Assembly (NCBI RefSeq): GCF_000255115.2 | Contig: NC_018068.1 | Span: 1,054,001-1,118,000 of the forward strand | DNA length: 64,000 bases | From: Desulfosporosinus acidiphilus SJ4 | GTDB lineage: Bacteria; Bacillota; Desulfitobacteriia; Desulfitobacteriales; Desulfitobacteriaceae | Direction of reading: 5' to 3' | Part shown: in pieces, positions 8,455 to 17,405 of the stretch | Layout of the letters: each line of letters begins with the position of its first letter | Numbering within the stretch: position 1 is the first letter of the stretch | Position numbers and translations under genes: made by a program | The notes under the pieces: generated by a model | What the model was told of the DNA's origin: nothing | The model's database searches: none | Seen by the model: the letters and a program-made list of their open reading frames with translations, nothing else

Positions 8455-8952
8455 TTGGCTGTTTCGGTTAGCCTGTGGAAAGAAGATTTCAGAGTGGACT
8501 ACATAAAACAAGGTACGAAGTCCTTTTATTTAGCCCTTCTGGCATTATTTGCAGGAGGGTTTAATACCTTTGCGATATTGTATGATATACAACCGTTGAT
8601 GCCGGATCTTTCTAATGACTTTCATATTTCCCCAACCTTGGCCAGCCTTTCTTTGTCTTTAACTACTGTAGCCATGGCTGTAAGCATGCTTTTTGTGAGT
8701 TCATTATCAGATTCCTGGGGAAGAAAACCGGTGATGATCTGTTCCTTGTTTGCAGCATCTATTCTGGCAAATTTGACTGCGGTCACCCCAAGTTTTCATG
8801 GTTTGCTCGTTCTTAGGGTTATATTAGGGATTGCCCTTGCCGGCCTTCCTGCTATCGCTATGACTTACTTGAGTGAGGAAATTGAACCGGGGGCCTTGGG
8901 AGTTGCCATGGGTATTTATATCAAGACTATTAATTTGCGGATCTGCCAATGA
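8455..8952 (+). pseudogene. Truncated MFS transporter (N-terminal third)
   Basis: The first ~155 codons encode a recognisable major-facilitator N-terminus. It has transmembrane segments around LALLALFAGGFNTFAILYDI, LASLSLSLTTVAMAVSMLF and GLLVLRVILGIALAG. It also has the inter-helix motif SDSWGRKPVM (motif A) and the LSEEIEPGALGVAMGIYI segment typical of YnfM/YgaY-like exporters. After GIYI the sequence turns into unrelated residues and stops at 8950-8952. Roughly 240 residues of a normal 400-residue carrier are missing. No weak remainder was found downstream, so a deletion joined the 5' part to the promoter region of the PAS gene. The TTG start is a guess. Confidence 0.65.
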
Positions 8953-8995
8953 ACAATCAACAGAAGATAAACAAGGTCGTTGGAGGTGTATGGAA

Positions 8996-9340
8996 ATGGA
9001 TTTTGGTGAGGTTTTTAAGGATATTTCTGCGGGACTTTTAGTTACGGACGCAGATTTCAATGTGATCTGGGCCAATAAATTCGAGGAACAGTTCTACGGG
9101 AAACCGGTTATGGGCTTATGGGCTTTAGACTGTCACATGCTAGAAAATCGCCAAAAGATTGCCGACTTTATAGCGCGGTTTAAAGCCGGGGAATTAAAAT
9201 CCTTTACCAAAGTTGCTTTCGGGATGGTTATTACCTATAGCAGCTACTTCAAGGATGGGGAGTTTGCCGGAATGATTCGAACAAGAATTTATTTGCCCGA
9301 AGGAGCGGATGCGAAGGAGACAGCTCATTATCCAAAGTGA
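8996..9340 (+). CDS. Small stand-alone PAS-domain protein
   Basis: 114 residues from the ATG at 8996, seven bases after GGAGGTG (8982-8988). An ATG at 8990 is too close to it. The core, ISAGLLVTDADFNVIWANKFEEQFYG, is a typical PAS N-terminal strand-helix pattern, followed by a CHMLENRQ segment like those of small redox or ligand-sensing PAS proteins. No output domain is attached. It probably signals through a partner protein or binds a small molecule. It lies directly after the truncated MFS gene and before a bidirectional terminator. Confidence 0.65.
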   Translation: MDFGEVFKDISAGLLVTDADFNVIWANKFEEQFYGKPVMGLWALDCHMLENRQKIADFIARFKAGELKSFTKVAFGMVITYSSYFKDGEFAGMIRTRIYLPEGADAKETAHYPK

Positions 9341-11680: not shown

Positions 11681-12310
11681 ATGTCATTAAAACCAAGACG
11701 TATCTATACTGAAGAGTGGAGTCCTTCAGAGGAGCAGATTAACAGTATATTTCCTTTGGATAAAATAACCTCAGAAATAGGCAGGAATCCCGATATCAAG
11801 GTATTCCGCGACGAAGAGGTAAAAGCGAAGTATCCTGCTCAGTTCAATATTTCAGTTCAAGCAAGGGCCTATAATCTCGGGTTAGTCGAACTGCTGCATG
11901 AATATTATGAGACAAACAAAACAAAACCTGAGCTTGAGGATTTGCTGGGAGTAAAATTACCGCAAATTCTTTGGGAGGACAACTTGGGCTATGAAGATAA
12001 GTTGATTAGCCTGCATATTACCAAACTCAATAAACAAGAAATCTTCATCAATGATATCGTGTTGGTCAAAAATGAAGATTTTGATATTTTAAGTGACGAG
12101 ATTATTGCTCAAGTGCTTAATAATTTACAGATCTTCGCTAAAGAGCAGGGCGCCAGGTACTTATCCGGTTATGCCGCCAATCGCAGCACGCTGGCCATTT
12201 TCAAAGGCATGGGATTTCAAGAAGATAGGCGAGAGAATATGGGCAATGATTATCTTTGGAAAATTGCCGTAGTGACTGGGGAACAATTGCCTTTTTATAC
12301 GGAACTTTAA
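11681..12310 (+). CDS. GNAT-like protein of unknown substrate
   Basis: 209 residues. The C-terminal part (EIIAQVLNNLQIFAKEQGARYLSGYAANRSTLAIFKGMGFQE, about residues 145-187) has the helix-strand-helix pattern and the xxFKGMGF ending of GNAT acetyltransferases. The acetyl-CoA pyrophosphate loop (QxxGxG/A) is not evident, so it may not be active. The N-terminal 100 residues are unfamiliar. GGCGTG precedes the ATG. The next gene, a probable selenoprotein of the DsbA/FrnE family, starts 45 bases downstream with its own ribosome site, so they are probably co-transcribed. Confidence 0.5.
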   Translation: MSLKPRRIYTEEWSPSEEQINSIFPLDKITSEIGRNPDIKVFRDEEVKAKYPAQFNISVQARAYNLGLVELLHEYYETNKTKPELEDLLGVKLPQILWEDNLGYEDKLISLHITKLNKQEIFINDIVLVKNEDFDILSDEIIAQVLNNLQIFAKEQGARYLSGYAANRSTLAIFKGMGFQEDRRENMGNDYLWKIAVVTGEQLPFYTEL

Positions 12311-12354
12311 TTTTAACTGTTAAAGATTGAAGACTTAACAAGGAGAGAGACAAC

Positions 12355-12972
12355 ATGGCTAACAGAATTACAGTTTTTTCGGACTTTTTATGACCTTTTT
12401 GTATGATAGGGAAAGTCCCCCTTGACCAGTTGGCCAAGGATAGAAATTTAGAAGTTATATGGAAATCTTTTGAATTGAGACCGGAAGGTATGGAAATTCC
12501 ACCTAAACCACCGGAGTATATTGAACAAGCCAAAGCAGGCATTGAAGTCCTGGGACGTAAATATGGCGTAAAAATGGTTTTTAATGACAAAAGCAAACAT
12601 TCCCGTTTAGCATTGCAAGGTTCTAAATTTGCTGAAGAATGCGGGAAGGGTGATGAGTATCACAATGCAGTATTTGCTGCTCAATTCCAAGAACAGAAAG
12701 ATATTAACGACCTAACGGTATTAATTGAAGTAGCTGCTGAAATCGGCTTAGATCCTGAGAAATTTAGGGAAGTCCTGGTCTTGAGGAAGTATGAACAAGC
12801 GGTTTTACAAGATATTAGTGAAGCACAAGCTTTAGGAATCCCTGGTGTACCTTATTTTATGGTTGATGGACGAACTGCTTTTGGGGCTCAAAGCTACGAA
12901 GACTTGGAGAAATTGCTTCTTGGCACGGAATCGGGTGCTGAAGGACTGTCCCGAGATTTGAAACTAAAATAG
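12355..12972 (+). CDS. DsbA/FrnE-like thioredoxin-fold protein with in-frame TGA (probable selenocysteine)
   Basis: A strong ribosome site (AAGGAGAGAG, 12340-12349) leads to the ATG at 12355. The frame runs MANRITVFSDFL, then TGA at 12391-12393, then PFCMIGKVPLDQL without interruption to the stop at 12970-12972. That gives 205 residues if TGA is decoded. Family members read SDFxCPFCxxGK here, so TGA sits exactly at the first, nucleophilic cysteine of CPFC (residue 13; C16 is kept). The cis-proline loop GIPGVPYFMV and the C-terminal SYEDLEKLL are intact. About 15 bases after TGA a short GGGA/TCCC hairpin with an AAG loop could be a bacterial SECIS. The likely role is a thiol-disulfide oxidoreductase or isomerase-type redox protein in the cytoplasm, since no signal peptide is seen. 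The alternative is a nonsense mutation or sequencing error. Ordinary gene callers will start it at 12403 and lose the active site. Confidence 0.75.
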
Positions 12973-13031
12973 TAAGTATCAGATTCTTGACTTGCGTCGA
13001 AAGTGACCAATAAACAAGCCGCATGGAAAAT

Positions 13032-13062
13032 GGCTGCAAAAGACCTTTGCAGCCTTGTAGTT
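13032..13062 (+). terminator. Hairpin terminator after the DsbA/FrnE-like gene
   Basis: GGCTGCAAA pairs with TTTGCAGCC around a five-base loop, followed by a weak TTGTAGTTGTTT tract. It lies upstream of the GTG start of the next gene, which supports that later start. Confidence 0.6.
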
Positions 13063-13082
13063 GTTTGAGAGGATGTGACCAC

Positions 13083-14006
13083 GTGACAAAAGTTGAACGA
13101 ATGATGGCGGCAATTAACTTTGAGAAAGTGGATCGTATTCCGAGAGGAGAATTTAATCTCGATGACAACTTTGTAGGAAATTTACTGGGTCTTAAAGAGA
13201 ATGTAAAATTTGAAGACAGAGTAAAGGCCTGTGAACTTTGTGGACTTGATGCTTTGGCTTTTTCTCCGGAACCGTTCGCAGCCTCACCTTCTGTAGGCTC
13301 CACAGCTACCGAAAGCCCAGCTGACAAGTTTGAGGTCTGGAAAGAGTTGAAACTTTGGCGGAAAGAAACAGACTTTTTTATTTTCGCCTTGATAGATGGG
13401 CCGTTTCAAGGAACGGCAAAACTTTTTTCATCATTCACTAACTATCTGTTAGCCATTGCTCAAGGGGATCCGGCAATACCGGAAGTGGTTAAAGCGGGAG
13501 TAGCCACCAATATTGAATTAGGGTTAAATGCCTTGGCTTTGGGTGCTCACGGGATTATTATTGCTGATGATATCGCCTATAATGGCGGGACGTTTGTTTC
13601 GCCAACGGCCTTGCGCATGAATTTTTTTCCTGCTCTTCGAGAACAGGTTGAAACGTTACAACGCGAAAAAGTTCCGGTTTTCTTTCACGCGGATGGAGAT
13701 TTAAAGAAGGTTTTAGAAGATATTATCAATTTAGGTGTGGATGGGTTACATTCCCTTGATTTTCCATCGTTAAGTGAGATTGACAAGGTTAGAAAAGCAA
13801 CCGCAAATACGGCTTGCTTAATGGGCGGCTACGATTTGGGGTGGTTTGAAGAAGAGAACAGAACAGAAAAAGCCTTGAATTTGCTGGAGGTGACTGCTAA
13901 AGGCGGGGGATATATCTTTGGCAGCAGTGCAGGAATCCTTGGGATGGGTCAAACTCCTCAACATGTTATGGAAGTCTATCAGTTTGTTAATAATTTTAAG
14001 GTATGA
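13083..14006 (+). CDS. Uroporphyrinogen decarboxylase-superfamily protein (methyltransferase-like)
   Basis: 307 residues of URO-D/MtaA-type TIM barrel: KVERMMAAINFEKVDRIPRGEF at the start, ALIDGPFQGTAKLF, HGIIIADDIAYNGG, VPVFFHADGDL and LMGGYDLGW. Members either decarboxylate uroporphyrinogen III or move methyl groups between corrinoid proteins and small molecules. Haem-pathway HemE is unlikely, because the protein is short and not near haem genes. The zinc-ligand HxC of MtaA-type enzymes reads HAD here, so zinc-thiol activation is doubtful. The GTG at 13083 has GAGAGGA eight bases upstream; an earlier ATG at 13023 lies before the hairpin terminator. A RACo-like corrinoid activator lies 1.8 kb downstream, but no corrinoid protein is in the window. 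Confidence 0.7.
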   Translation: MTKVERMMAAINFEKVDRIPRGEFNLDDNFVGNLLGLKENVKFEDRVKACELCGLDALAFSPEPFAASPSVGSTATESPADKFEVWKELKLWRKETDFFIFALIDGPFQGTAKLFSSFTNYLLAIAQGDPAIPEVVKAGVATNIELGLNALALGAHGIIIADDIAYNGGTFVSPTALRMNFFPALREQVETLQREKVPVFFHADGDLKKVLEDIINLGVDGLHSLDFPSLSEIDKVRKATANTACLMGGYDLGWFEEENRTEKALNLLEVTAKGGGYIFGSSAGILGMGQTPQHVMEVYQFVNNFKV

Positions 14007-14093: not shown

Positions 14094-14966
14094 ATGATCA
14101 TCAAAAAATATCGCAGTTTAAACGAGACAACTATGAGTGAAGTTCTTGATCTAGAGAAGGATTGCAACGACTATGACGAGCTTAGGGGAAGTGTTTTTTT
14201 AGATACTTCCTTAAATTTTAATCAAATGATACAGAGCATTTTTCTTCTTTATGAGGGCCGGATGCTGATCAGCATGCTATCGATGTTCATACCGAGTCAC
14301 CAGGAAGTCGAAATTTCCGCAATGACGAGACCGGAGTATCGGAAGAGGGGATATTTTAAGGCTTTGTTGTTCCAAGCCGTCGAAGAACTTTGCCTCCATA
14401 ACATCTCAGACATTCTTTTTGTCTGTGAAAGGCCTTCAGATTCGGGGAAACAGGTTCTTAACCGTTTACAAGCAGTATTTGAGCACAGCGAATATTATAT
14501 GAGTTTGAATAGGGGTGGAAAGGCTGATATAGAAAATCAGCGCTTGGTCCTTTCTAAGTCCACTCTTCGGGACCTGGAAACAATTATTCAGCTCAGCTGC
14601 AAGATTTTTGACGATAATGATGAAGATGCCAGGAGTCTTATTGAGAACTGCCTTAATTCAGAAAGCCGGGATCAGTACCTGGCCATTCTAGGCGATAAAC
14701 CTATGGGAATGGTTTCGGTAAATCATTTAAGTGATGAAGAGGCATCAATCTTTGGTTTGGGAATTCTGCCCGAATATAGAAGCTTCGGTTATGGCAAGGA
14801 ACTCCTCGGTTTAATTCTCAAAGACTTATGGAGACTGGGTAAGCAGCAAATCACCTTGGAGGTTGACAGCGAAAATGACCGCGCGTTTGCTCTTTATCAA
14901 AGGATGGGATTTCGCATTGAAGTAGCTTATGACTATTATCGCAAGCAAGTAAGTGACTTTTGCTGA
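14094..14966 (+). CDS. Tandem GNAT-domain N-acetyltransferase
   Basis: 290 residues. The C-terminal half has a canonical acetyl-CoA loop (GLGILPEYRSFGYGKELLGL, about residues 220-240) and the ending ALYQRMGFRIE. The N-terminal half has a second, weaker GNAT pattern (AMTRPEYRKRGYFKALL, about residues 78-95). It therefore looks like a duplicated GNAT of the MSHD/YbfA style. The start is ATG 14094 after GAGGAG. It overlaps the reading frame upstream of the NRDE gene, with only 37 bases between its stop and that ATG. The acyl acceptor is unknown; small-molecule or ribosomal-protein acetylation are both possible. Confidence 0.75.
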   Translation: MIIKKYRSLNETTMSEVLDLEKDCNDYDELRGSVFLDTSLNFNQMIQSIFLLYEGRMLISMLSMFIPSHQEVEISAMTRPEYRKRGYFKALLFQAVEELCLHNISDILFVCERPSDSGKQVLNRLQAVFEHSEYYMSLNRGGKADIENQRLVLSKSTLRDLETIIQLSCKIFDDNDEDARSLIENCLNSESRDQYLAILGDKPMGMVSVNHLSDEEASIFGLGILPEYRSFGYGKELLGLILKDLWRLGKQQITLEVDSENDRAFALYQRMGFRIEVAYDYYRKQVSDFC

Positions 14967-15774: not shown

Positions 15775-15833
15775 AGAGCGTATGGTAAGTGTGAATTATA
15801 TTTTCGGAAAATTCAGTAATGGGGGGTTTGGTT

Positions 15834-17405
15834 ATGGTAAACCAATATGAAAAGCCTGTTATTCTGGCCGATCAGATGCAAACGACTCTCACCAGCCTTG
15901 AACCACTTTCGAGGAAAGTATTTCTAACCTTAGTACCTCCTAGTTCTTTGGATAACAGGGCCGTTGTGGATCAGGTCCGCCAGTTATTAGAACGTGATTT
16001 CCGTCCAGTACGTGTCCCCTTAGCGTTAATGTCTAAAATTCCAACCCTCTGCCGCGATGCTGATTGGCAAATTACAGCAACTATGGCGGAAACGGGTTTG
16101 GGATGGGATCTTATTGAAGTTGAACCGGGGAATACGACTCAGCAGCAATTTGGCCTGGCTGTGGATATCGGAACAACGACTGTAGTCGTTTATCTAATAA
16201 ATTTGGGCAATGGGGAGGTCCTGGGGCATGCAGCAAATTACAACGGGCAAATTAGTCTGGGTGAGGACATTTTAAGCCGTATTCGTCAGGCAGCAGAACC
16301 GGGGGGATTAAAACACCTGCAGACTTTAATTCTGGATACTCTTAATGAATTAATTGAAACTGTTTGTCTGACTTCTTTAAAGCCCTGTCAAATAACAGCT
16401 GCAGCCATTGGAGCCAATACAACAATGGTTCACCTTCTCCTTGGTCTCGATCCGGCTTCGCTTTGCCGTGCTCCCTATACTCCCATCGTCAACAATCCGG
16501 GCTTGATTCCGGCCGGAGAGCTTGGAATGAAAATTCATCCCTTGGCACCGGTATATTGTCTTCCGAGTATCGGCAGTTACTTAGGCGGAGATGTTATCGG
16601 CGGGGTTTTGGTCAGTGGTATGCATACGAAGCCCGATGTCTCTTTATTTGTTGATATTGGCACGAATGGAGAAATTGTTATGGGCAATGAGGAATGGCTT
16701 GTTGCGTGTGCCGGAGCTGCCGGACCAGCCTTGGAAGGCGGGGTTACTTCCTTCGGCATGCGGGCAGAGTCCGGAGCAGTCGATCATGTCGAGATCGATG
16801 GAAAGAGCGGCAGAGTTCGGTATACGACGATAGGAGGGATGCCTGCGCGGGGAATCTGCGGTTCAGGCTTGGTGGATACCTTGGCTGAGCTTTTTCTGAA
16901 TGGAATTATTGACCGCACAGCCCGCTTTACCCATGGCAGAGATGAGTACGTGATTGTCCCGGCTTTGGAGTCAGCTATAGGCAAAGACATTGTGGTAACT
17001 CAAATTGATATCAACAACTTTATGGCTACGAAAGGGGCCGTCAATGCGGCAACGGATCTTTTGATGGAAAACGTAGGATGTCCTTGGCAGGAAATCAGCC
17101 ACTTTTATGCAGCAGGAGCCTTTGGCCAATACTTACCTGTGGAGTCAGCTATTACTATTGGGCTTTATCCTGATCTCCCGCGTGCTTCCATCGTGCGTTT
17201 AGGAAACAGTTCGGGCGAAGCAGCACGACAGGTTCTCATCTCACGCTCAAAGCGCAGGGAGGCTGAGACGATCGCTTCCAAAGTCACTTATTTTGAACTC
17301 AATGCAAATTCCTCCTTTATGGAAAAATTCGTAAGCAGTAAATTCCTTCCTCACACGGATCTCGAGCGGTATCCAAGTGTCAAAAAGCGACTTGATAGGT
17401 TATAA
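15834..17405 (+). CDS. RACo-like ASKHA-domain protein lacking the N-terminal ferredoxin domain
   Basis: 523 residues. The ASKHA (actin-like ATPase) domain starts at about residue 108 with GLAVDIGTTTVVVYL, continues through GANTTMVHLLLG and SLFVDIGTNGEIVMG, then CAGAAGPALEGG, and ends with FYAAGAFGQYLPVESAI and a late GLYPDLP segment. This is the RamA/RACo type of ATP-dependent reductive activator of corrinoid proteins. Those enzymes carry an N-terminal [2Fe-2S] or C-terminal Fe-S domain; here the first 100 residues match only the linker region (SRKVFLTLVPPSSLDN) and no CxxxxCxxC cluster motif is visible. Electrons would have to come from another protein. ATG 15834 is chosen because a G6 ribosome site lies seven bases upstream. 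Confidence 0.8.
   Translation: MVNQYEKPVILADQMQTTLTSLEPLSRKVFLTLVPPSSLDNRAVVDQVRQLLERDFRPVRVPLALMSKIPTLCRDADWQITATMAETGLGWDLIEVEPGNTTQQQFGLAVDIGTTTVVVYLINLGNGEVLGHAANYNGQISLGEDILSRIRQAAEPGGLKHLQTLILDTLNELIETVCLTSLKPCQITAAAIGANTTMVHLLLGLDPASLCRAPYTPIVNNPGLIPAGELGMKIHPLAPVYCLPSIGSYLGGDVIGGVLVSGMHTKPDVSLFVDIGTNGEIVMGNEEWLVACAGAAGPALEGGVTSFGMRAESGAVDHVEIDGKSGRVRYTTIGGMPARGICGSGLVDTLAELFLNGIIDRTARFTHGRDEYVIVPALESAIGKDIVVTQIDINNFMATKGAVNAATDLLMENVGCPWQEISHFYAAGAFGQYLPVESAITIGLYPDLPRASIVRLGNSSGEAARQVLISRSKRREAETIASKVTYFELNANSSFMEKFVSSKFLPHTDLERYPSVKKRLDRL

Follow-up and report, generated by a model that had tools for sequence, protein, structure and literature searches.

A FrnE/DsbA-type gene of Desulfosporosinus acidiphilus with an in-frame UGA at its active site and two conserved hairpins as its probable selenocysteine signal

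DsbA-like selenoproteins with a UxxC motif, assigned to COG2761, were reported from the Sargasso Sea in 2005 (PMC1088965) and from Desulfotomaculum reducens and other organisms in 2006 (PMC1794560), and are also tabulated in two further sources (PMC9312934, PMC13188914). Among proteins with cysteine at the same place, the FrnE proteins of Deinococcus carry a CP(W/F)C motif and are predicted to be cytoplasmic; FrnE of D. radiodurans has been described as a cytoplasmic disulfide reductase with a C-terminal CXXXXC that has been proposed to regenerate the active site, and some FrnE proteins are without this second motif (PMC8945050). Lmo1059, a CPFC protein of the DsbA family, reduces GSSG, and its first cysteine is essential both for this reaction and for diamide tolerance (PMC10715225). 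In the literature searched, no paper was found by title on a bacterial FrnE with selenocysteine, and the main text of the deep-Sep study (PMC12013277) has neither DsbA nor Desulfosporosinus. The signal that specifies selenocysteine (Sec) in bacteria, the SECIS hairpin, has been described by a rule of a loop of 3–9 nt, a stem of 4–16 bp, a spacing of 16–37 nt from the UGA and an energy of at most −7.5 kcal/mol, with G in the first two places of the loop, most loops then having G or U; some elements depart from this model, and distinct classes have been pointed to (PMC13188914).

We analyzed a stretch of 64,000 nucleotides (the window) from the genome of Desulfosporosinus acidiphilus SJ4 (4.99 Mb in 3 contigs), which contains a gene of this family with a UGA at the codon of the attacking residue. 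The parts of the gene that concern the protein are the following:

12340–12345, plus strand: ribosome-binding site AAGGAG, read from the sequence
12355–12972, plus strand: gene of the FrnE/DsbA-type selenoprotein, which has 205 residues when the UGA is translated as Sec
12391–12393, plus strand: UGA codon, residue 13, first place of U-P-F-C, from sequence and alignments
12400–12402, plus strand: codon (TGT) of the resolving Cys16, invariant in alignments
12850–12852, plus strand: codon of P166, which is invariant in the alignment and may be the cis-proline of the thioredoxin fold

A first-pass annotation had read a ribosome site, an ATG at 12355 and a frame running to 12972 with one TGA at 12391, and had placed this TGA at the first cysteine of a CPFC motif whose second cysteine is kept. 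The sequence confirms all of this: the frame ends in a TAG stop at 12972, and the readthrough product of 205 residues contains U13-P-F-C16, the CXXC-type motif of the FrnE/DsbA family in its U-P-F-C form. The PF01323 (DSBA) profile matches residues 5–188, thus spanning the TGA, with 127.2 bits (cut-off 25.6), whereas the NF041057 profile for the Rcas_1661 (seleno)lipoprotein stays at 48.5 bits, under its curated cut-off of 190. We conclude that the gene almost certainly encodes a thiol-disulfide oxidoreductase of the FrnE/DsbA type with Sec as its attacking residue, inserted at the UGA at 12391, a reading built on the conservation of this codon, the machinery genes of the genome and a stretch of frozen RNA, together with a predicted fold. 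With the published DsbA-like selenoproteins (COG2761/PF01323) the product has the Pfam family and the UxxC motif in common, a likeness drawn from their published description. The earlier remark that the family has precedents agrees with the print record since 2005, and the proposed tandem-hairpin signal described below is the newest part of the present work. Since none of the five TGA members examined passes an NCBIfam cut-off, TGA copies in the family may well be mis-called by gene finders; for the present gene, which a gene finder could start at an internal ATG with loss of the active site, our analysis settles the matter.

The structure predicted for the product (pLDDT 91) has a thioredoxin fold with a helical insertion, as in FrnE. 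Its best Foldseek matches are chains of D. radiodurans FrnE (PDB 5cnw, 5cp1, 5xwh; E = 8.6e-15 to 4.8e-14, TM-score by query 0.79–0.83), and FrnE is also the top match in a sequence profile search; the active-site residue is Cys in D. radiodurans FrnE and predicted to be Sec here. By comparison with the family, P166 would be the cis-proline of the fold. The first strand of the model occupies residues 4–9 and leaves no room for a signal peptide, so that the protein is most likely cytosolic. The C-terminal CXXXXC is missing from the 205-residue translation, which has no Cys after residue 96. By analogy with FrnE and with Lmo1059, which has Cys at the site and which we liken to the product by its CPFC motif, we suggest that the protein reduces disulfides in the cytosol, and that its chemistry may be faster for having Sec at residue 13. 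Sec13 would attack a disulfide, either of a protein or of a small molecule, Cys16 would resolve the mixed selenosulfide, and a cellular reductant would restore the Sec13/Cys16 pair; both the direction of this reaction and its substrates are proposed on the strength of these likenesses.

Matches to the protein family occur in 28 of 45 genomes of the bacterial family, and none occur in three of the 29 genomes of the genus. All 26 full orthologues, every one within the genus, have TGA at the same codon, and S9, D10, F11, L12, P14 and Cys16 around it show no change among them. Near relatives outside the genus have TGA in 10 of 12 cases and TGC in two (L077 and L079 of Alicyclobacillus, near-identical to each other); ten of these loci (L072–L081) were found by fixed peptide patterns, which biases them to near relatives, and two more TGA genes (L113, L115) came from the search of the class Bacilli. 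A scan of species genomes yielded 32 loci, comprising 22 of the genus type, seven TGA genes of named Bacilli (Aneurinibacillus, Aquibacillus, Paenisporosarcina, Terrihalobacillus, Evansella, Virgibacillus, Sinobaca), one TGA gene of a Bacillota bin and the two TGC genes of Alicyclobacillus. Patterns that demanded a stop, Cys or Ser at the site underlie the earlier site counts; an alignment free of any motif repeats the reading, with a stop (95) or Cys (42) in 137 of 137 family loci, a number that includes overlapping fetches of one gene. Three copies look decayed (L150, L151, L157), having one stop at the Sec codon and another in frame at about residue 36; for L150 and L151 this second stop sits where Trp is expected, and the common position is curious.

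The genome of D. acidiphilus contains the full machinery for Sec. selC is a tRNA-Sec with anticodon tca (ARAGORN; 64.9 bits in Rfam), selA scores 496 bits, selB 345.6 bits over its main stretch and 370.9 with its neighbor (cut-off 242.25), and selD, which has one in-frame TGA of its own, 399.8 bits (cut-off 125). The searches for the tRNA, selB and selD also give matches in all 14 control genomes, mostly under the cut-off; in the source genome each of the three has matches above the curated cut-off. Two of the checks that the first-pass annotation had named, the presence of selA, selB, selC and selD and the nature of the residue at this site in homologues, both bear out its selenoprotein interpretation. 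Across the genus, selA is present in 27 of 29 genomes, including all 26 that have the selenoprotein gene; one genome (98% complete) has selA and no copy of the gene, and two less complete ones have neither. All ten source genomes of L072–L081 have selA, the two with TGC included. In a sample of 398 genomes of the class Bacilli, 47 had a family match at 1e-50 and 85 had selA, which was found in 20 of 20 genomes with an in-frame TGA in a family match versus 9 of the 27 whose matches have none (p = 1.4e-6); in 19 of those 20 the TGA occupies the Sec codon and the frame is open apart from it, and the 20th is the source of the decayed copy L150. The TGA gene of Aneurinibacillus (L072) fits a published study of that genus, in which A. 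terranovensis and A. tyrosinisolvens are the sole species noted to have selenocysteine synthase (PMC7996765).

Downstream of the UGA lie two adjoining hairpins. Columns are numbered from the UGA as 1–3, column n being window position 12390+n:

12409–12419, plus strand: hairpin HP1, GGGA-AAG-UCCC, columns 19–29; wobble columns 21 and 27 invariant, loop column 24 variable
12420, plus strand: linker of one base between HP1 and HP2, a variable wobble column (C/A/G)
12421–12438, plus strand: hairpin HP2, CUUGACC-AGUU-GGCCAAG, columns 31–48, loop at 12428–12431; candidate for the SECIS read by SelB

Seven degenerate residues from 19 to 27 are the same in all 26 genus genes, and five of them are encoded by a single codon throughout (GGG, CTT, GAC, CAG, TTG), versus none of 55 such residues elsewhere in the gene (p = 3e-6, an indicative value since the sequences are related). 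We extended the comparison to 36 distinct TGA genes (clade I: the 26 of the genus and 10 others) and 41 wobble columns from −24 to 96. Columns 21, 27, 33, 36, 39, 42 and 48 are invariant in all 36 genes, 33 and 36 in part by choice because the motif by which the set was picked (CTTGACC or CTTAACC in the HP2 region) covers columns 31–37; columns 21, 27, 39, 42 and 48 are free of this motif, which also played no part in the choice of the 26 genus genes. Genes of the set further had to stay open for 120 codons or more past the site (40 or more at contig ends); outside the set stand the relic L161 and a copy with a stop at the site and then a second one (L088/L157). Column 27 is fixed as C though the encoded residue is V, I, A or F. 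Among the paired wobble positions tabulated, six of seven are invariant, the one that varies being column 45, which faces column 34 as G-C in 25 genes, A-U in two, G-U in two and a mismatch in one (n = 30). The unpaired columns 24 (HP1 loop) and 30 (linker) vary, as do the remaining wobble columns before and after the hairpins, except the UGA's own and that of the invariant Trp36. The freeze begins at HP1 and stops at HP2, and in it lies the strength of the RNA case. Covariation within this element is suggestive only: a single pair shows changes of both partners, in two of the sequences, and the score is slightly higher for a control slid by −1. RNAalifold predicted both hairpins unprompted, with pair 35–44 open.

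HP2 agrees with the published rule in loop, stem and spacing. Its loop is AGUU in 33 genes, AGGU in two and GGUU in one (n = 36), so that G always stands at column 39, and every gene has a G within the first two loop places with G or U after it, at a spacing of 34 nt; in the window AGUU caps a stem of eight positions, one of them an A-C mismatch. With its 4-nt loop, its G then U/G, its spacing of 34 nt and its stem of at least 4 bp, HP2 is like the bacterial consensus of PMC13188914; the present element differs in having a second conserved hairpin between the UGA and HP2, which the section on the consensus does not describe. The energy of HP2 alone in the window is −7.1 kcal/mol, 0.4 short of the −7.5 limit, and that of a 63-nt region −13.1; the section of PMC13188914 that gives the limit does not state over what stretch it is measured. 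Among rule-abiding hairpins, HP2 ranks first in 33 of the 36 genes (exceptions L073, L075, L080). As a separator of Sec from Cys forms, hairpin energy fails for clade I, where the best rule-abiding hairpin is at or below −7.5 in 3 of 36 genes versus 2 of 37 Cys homologues, and a folding z-score is likewise too weak to serve as evidence (−2.3 for the region with plain shuffles versus −2.45 elsewhere in the gene). In the two TGC genes of Alicyclobacillus the codons differ and, by eye, neither hairpin can form, the best rule-abiding hairpin of L077 having −0.1 kcal/mol; being near-identical, these genes make the loss of the signal with the change to Cys a single case. The frameshifted relic L161 keeps the element, with one further compensated pair by eye. 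Rfam returned no match to a SECIS family, and the covariance model R1, run over 29 genus and 398 Bacilli-class genomes with stricter filters in one of its two scans, found nothing above 30 bits beyond the clade I FrnE genes and one relic; weaker matches that were inspected (L162–L164) looked like chance.

Three readings would remove Sec from the protein altogether. Decayed copies of the family do exist, as noted above, with L161 as a frameshifted case, and the TGA at 12391 might likewise have come about by nonsense mutation, or by faulty sequencing, in a gene of the ordinary Cys form; this is scarcely credible for a codon that all 26 orthologues of the genus have in common with 10 genes from outside it, and for a gene whose wobble sites are frozen in the two hairpins only. 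If the UGA were a true stop, a shorter protein without the active site could start at ATG 12403, four codons past the TGA, which opens a frame of 189 residues that a gene finder could call. We hold this to be very improbable: only 25 of the 36 genes have this ATG, the others having F, I or L at residue 17, the invariance of the residues on both sides of the UGA in the genus argues against an internal start, and the resulting form would lack the first strand as well. That Cys homologues are known at this codon would suit a UGA read as Cys, or as Trp, by a suppressor or a changed code. To this, too, we give next to no weight, considering the complete Sec machinery of the source genome, the selA found in each of the 20 sampled Bacilli genomes with the TGA form, and the use of UGA as the true end stop of the same gene in relatives such as L014 and L016.

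A further question is which hairpin carries the signal. The first-pass annotation had pointed to the small GGGA/TCCC hairpin as the SECIS. The hairpin is real (HP1), its wobble pair G21–C27 is invariant in 36 of 36 genes, and it lies at about the spacing found in sister clades II and III (19–21 nt); the possibility that it acts alone and that HP2 is incidental nevertheless appears unlikely, as the HP1 loop has G in its first two places in seven genes and lacks it there in 29, four of the 36 have no G at all over columns 22–26, and the frozen wobble sites are more numerous in HP2, whose loop has the recognized pattern throughout. We therefore favor HP2: SelB, which would bring the charged Sec-tRNA to the UGA at 12391, most likely recognizes AGUU, the loop of HP2 (12421–12438), and HP1 (12409–12419) belongs to the same signal and probably holds this loop close to the ribosome. 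Insertion of Sec at the UGA, like the choice of the loop that SelB reads, is what we infer from these patterns.

A similar arrangement is found in selD. The selD gene of the source genome (L048) has two adjoining hairpins after its own UGA, and we compared it with DNA near selA from 40 stretches. These came from 19 genus genomes (one of which gave two stretches), two genomes of the bacterial family and 18 of the 85 Bacilli-class genomes that have selA; the 18 are not a random draw, as many of them also have a TGA FrnE gene. Nine of the 40 stretches lacked selD, and two pattern matches (L196, L204) were dropped as not being selD; the set came to 30 TGA-containing selD genes, of which 17 belong to the genus. 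The distal hairpin pairs columns 31–36 with 40–45 around a loop of GUU, GUA or GUC at a spacing of 33 and is fully paired in 27 of 30 genes, while the upstream hairpin takes one of two registers, two bases apart, with at least four of five pairs in all 30. Strong covariation runs through both hairpins in the first register: 11 cells have changed on both sides, a number reached in none of 500 shuffles, which ignore relatedness, and compared with one to four cells in slid controls. For the mixed set, RNAalifold recovers no more than the base of the distal hairpin, an outcome that would be in keeping with an upstream hairpin of shifting register. The upstream loop (UUC, CCG, CCA, AGC, UGC and others) often has no G where the rule wants one. 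In the three genes with a broken distal hairpin (L192, L198, L200, the last two apparently very similar) this loop reads GGC or GGA, with a GG that fits the rule, an association that is only suggestive because GGC is also found in L188 and L201, where the distal hairpin is intact.

The same layout in selD makes it plausible that tandem hairpins are general and that the upstream one acts as a spacer, a role that we deduce from the geometry: with the upstream hairpin folded out, the effective spacing would be 34 − 11 = 23 nt in the FrnE gene and 33 − 13 = 20 nt in selD. We accordingly put forward, as a tentative proposal that is quite possible if short of probable, that tandem-hairpin elements are a distinct class of bacterial signal. 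In such elements SelB would read a distal loop 33–34 nt from the UGA, an upstream hairpin without a recognized loop would fold out about 11–13 nt to leave the usual effective distance of about 20–23 nt, and the design, common to two unrelated genes (FrnE and selD) and to Desulfosporosinus and Bacilli, would interconvert with a single hairpin. If true, this would explain how bacterial SECIS loops at 33–37 nt can work, and SECIS search programs would treat long spacings differently. In the literature searched, a search that was not exhaustive, no paper was found by title on a two-hairpin bacterial SECIS.

Single hairpins occur in the sister clades. Clade II comprises TGA genes of Bacilli, mostly with SDYV-U-P(F/Y)C-x-(I/L)AE (18 distinct rows), and clade III with other TGA genes spans several Bacillota families (11 rows), among them a second family copy in two genus genomes (L037, L038). 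Both have one hairpin at about the place of HP1, its loop mostly with G and then G or U; the best rule-abiding hairpin lies at 19–21 nt in 17 of 18 clade II genes (exception L131, 26 nt) and in 10 of 11 clade III or other genes (exception L111, 28 nt). The clade II genes (L121, L124, L131, L132, L134, L137, L141–L149, L152–L154) show a single hairpin of GCGG type at about 20 nt and interleave with Cys forms on the tree. A quick tree of 84 rows, drawn from 133 collected matches with near-duplicates and most genus rows left out, implies 12 changes between Sec and Cys, of which well-supported branches force nine; on a careful tree of 46 rows there are five, of which three are forced. The latter places the genus genes together with the rest of clade I (support 100/99), with weak support for their place inside the clade (86/52), and transfer between Bacilli and Desulfosporosinus, in either direction, is likely from these sequences. 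The sister clades thus offer a natural set in which one enzyme exists as a Sec or a Cys form, with at least nine switches on the quick tree and three SECIS designs.

Directly upstream of the selenoprotein gene lies a partner that the first-pass annotation had called GNAT-like:

11681–12310, plus strand: gene of a predicted GNAT-fold protein, 209 aa, from upstream conservation (tblastn), AlphaFold2, Foldseek and VIA

The predicted structure agrees with that description. The AlphaFold2 model has a pLDDT of 88, the Foldseek matches listed (E ≤ 0.001) are GNAT enzymes, and VIA gives Z up to 9.0 with NatD on top and other GNATs within one Z of it, so that the product is predicted to have a GNAT fold. 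Pfam gave nothing over its cut-off for this product, and among the matches listed for 17 members of the protein the only one of GNAT type was FR47, at E = 0.045 in one member. By tblastn the gene stands directly upstream in 25 of the 26 genus loci (L009–L034), L033 ending at a contig edge, and in none of the 10 loci outside the genus (L072–L081). It is separated from the selenoprotein gene by 44 bases here and by a few bases in many genus loci; the small gap and the constant upstream place make co-transcription of the two genes probable. No other neighbor of the selenoprotein gene is constant. Within the window, an ordinary GNAT acetyltransferase (14094–14966; PF00583, 74.5 bits) lies a few genes from the divergent GNAT-fold gene. 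Close downstream are genes for a URO-D-family protein (13023–14006; PF01208) and a RACo-type corrinoid activator (15819–17405; PF14574, PF17651), which suggest a corrinoid methyl-transfer set. On the other side, a frame of 165 residues (8455–8952) resembles, by eye, the N-terminal portion of MFS transporters, ends abruptly and is overlapped by an unrelated frame (8873–9340); it is possibly a broken gene.
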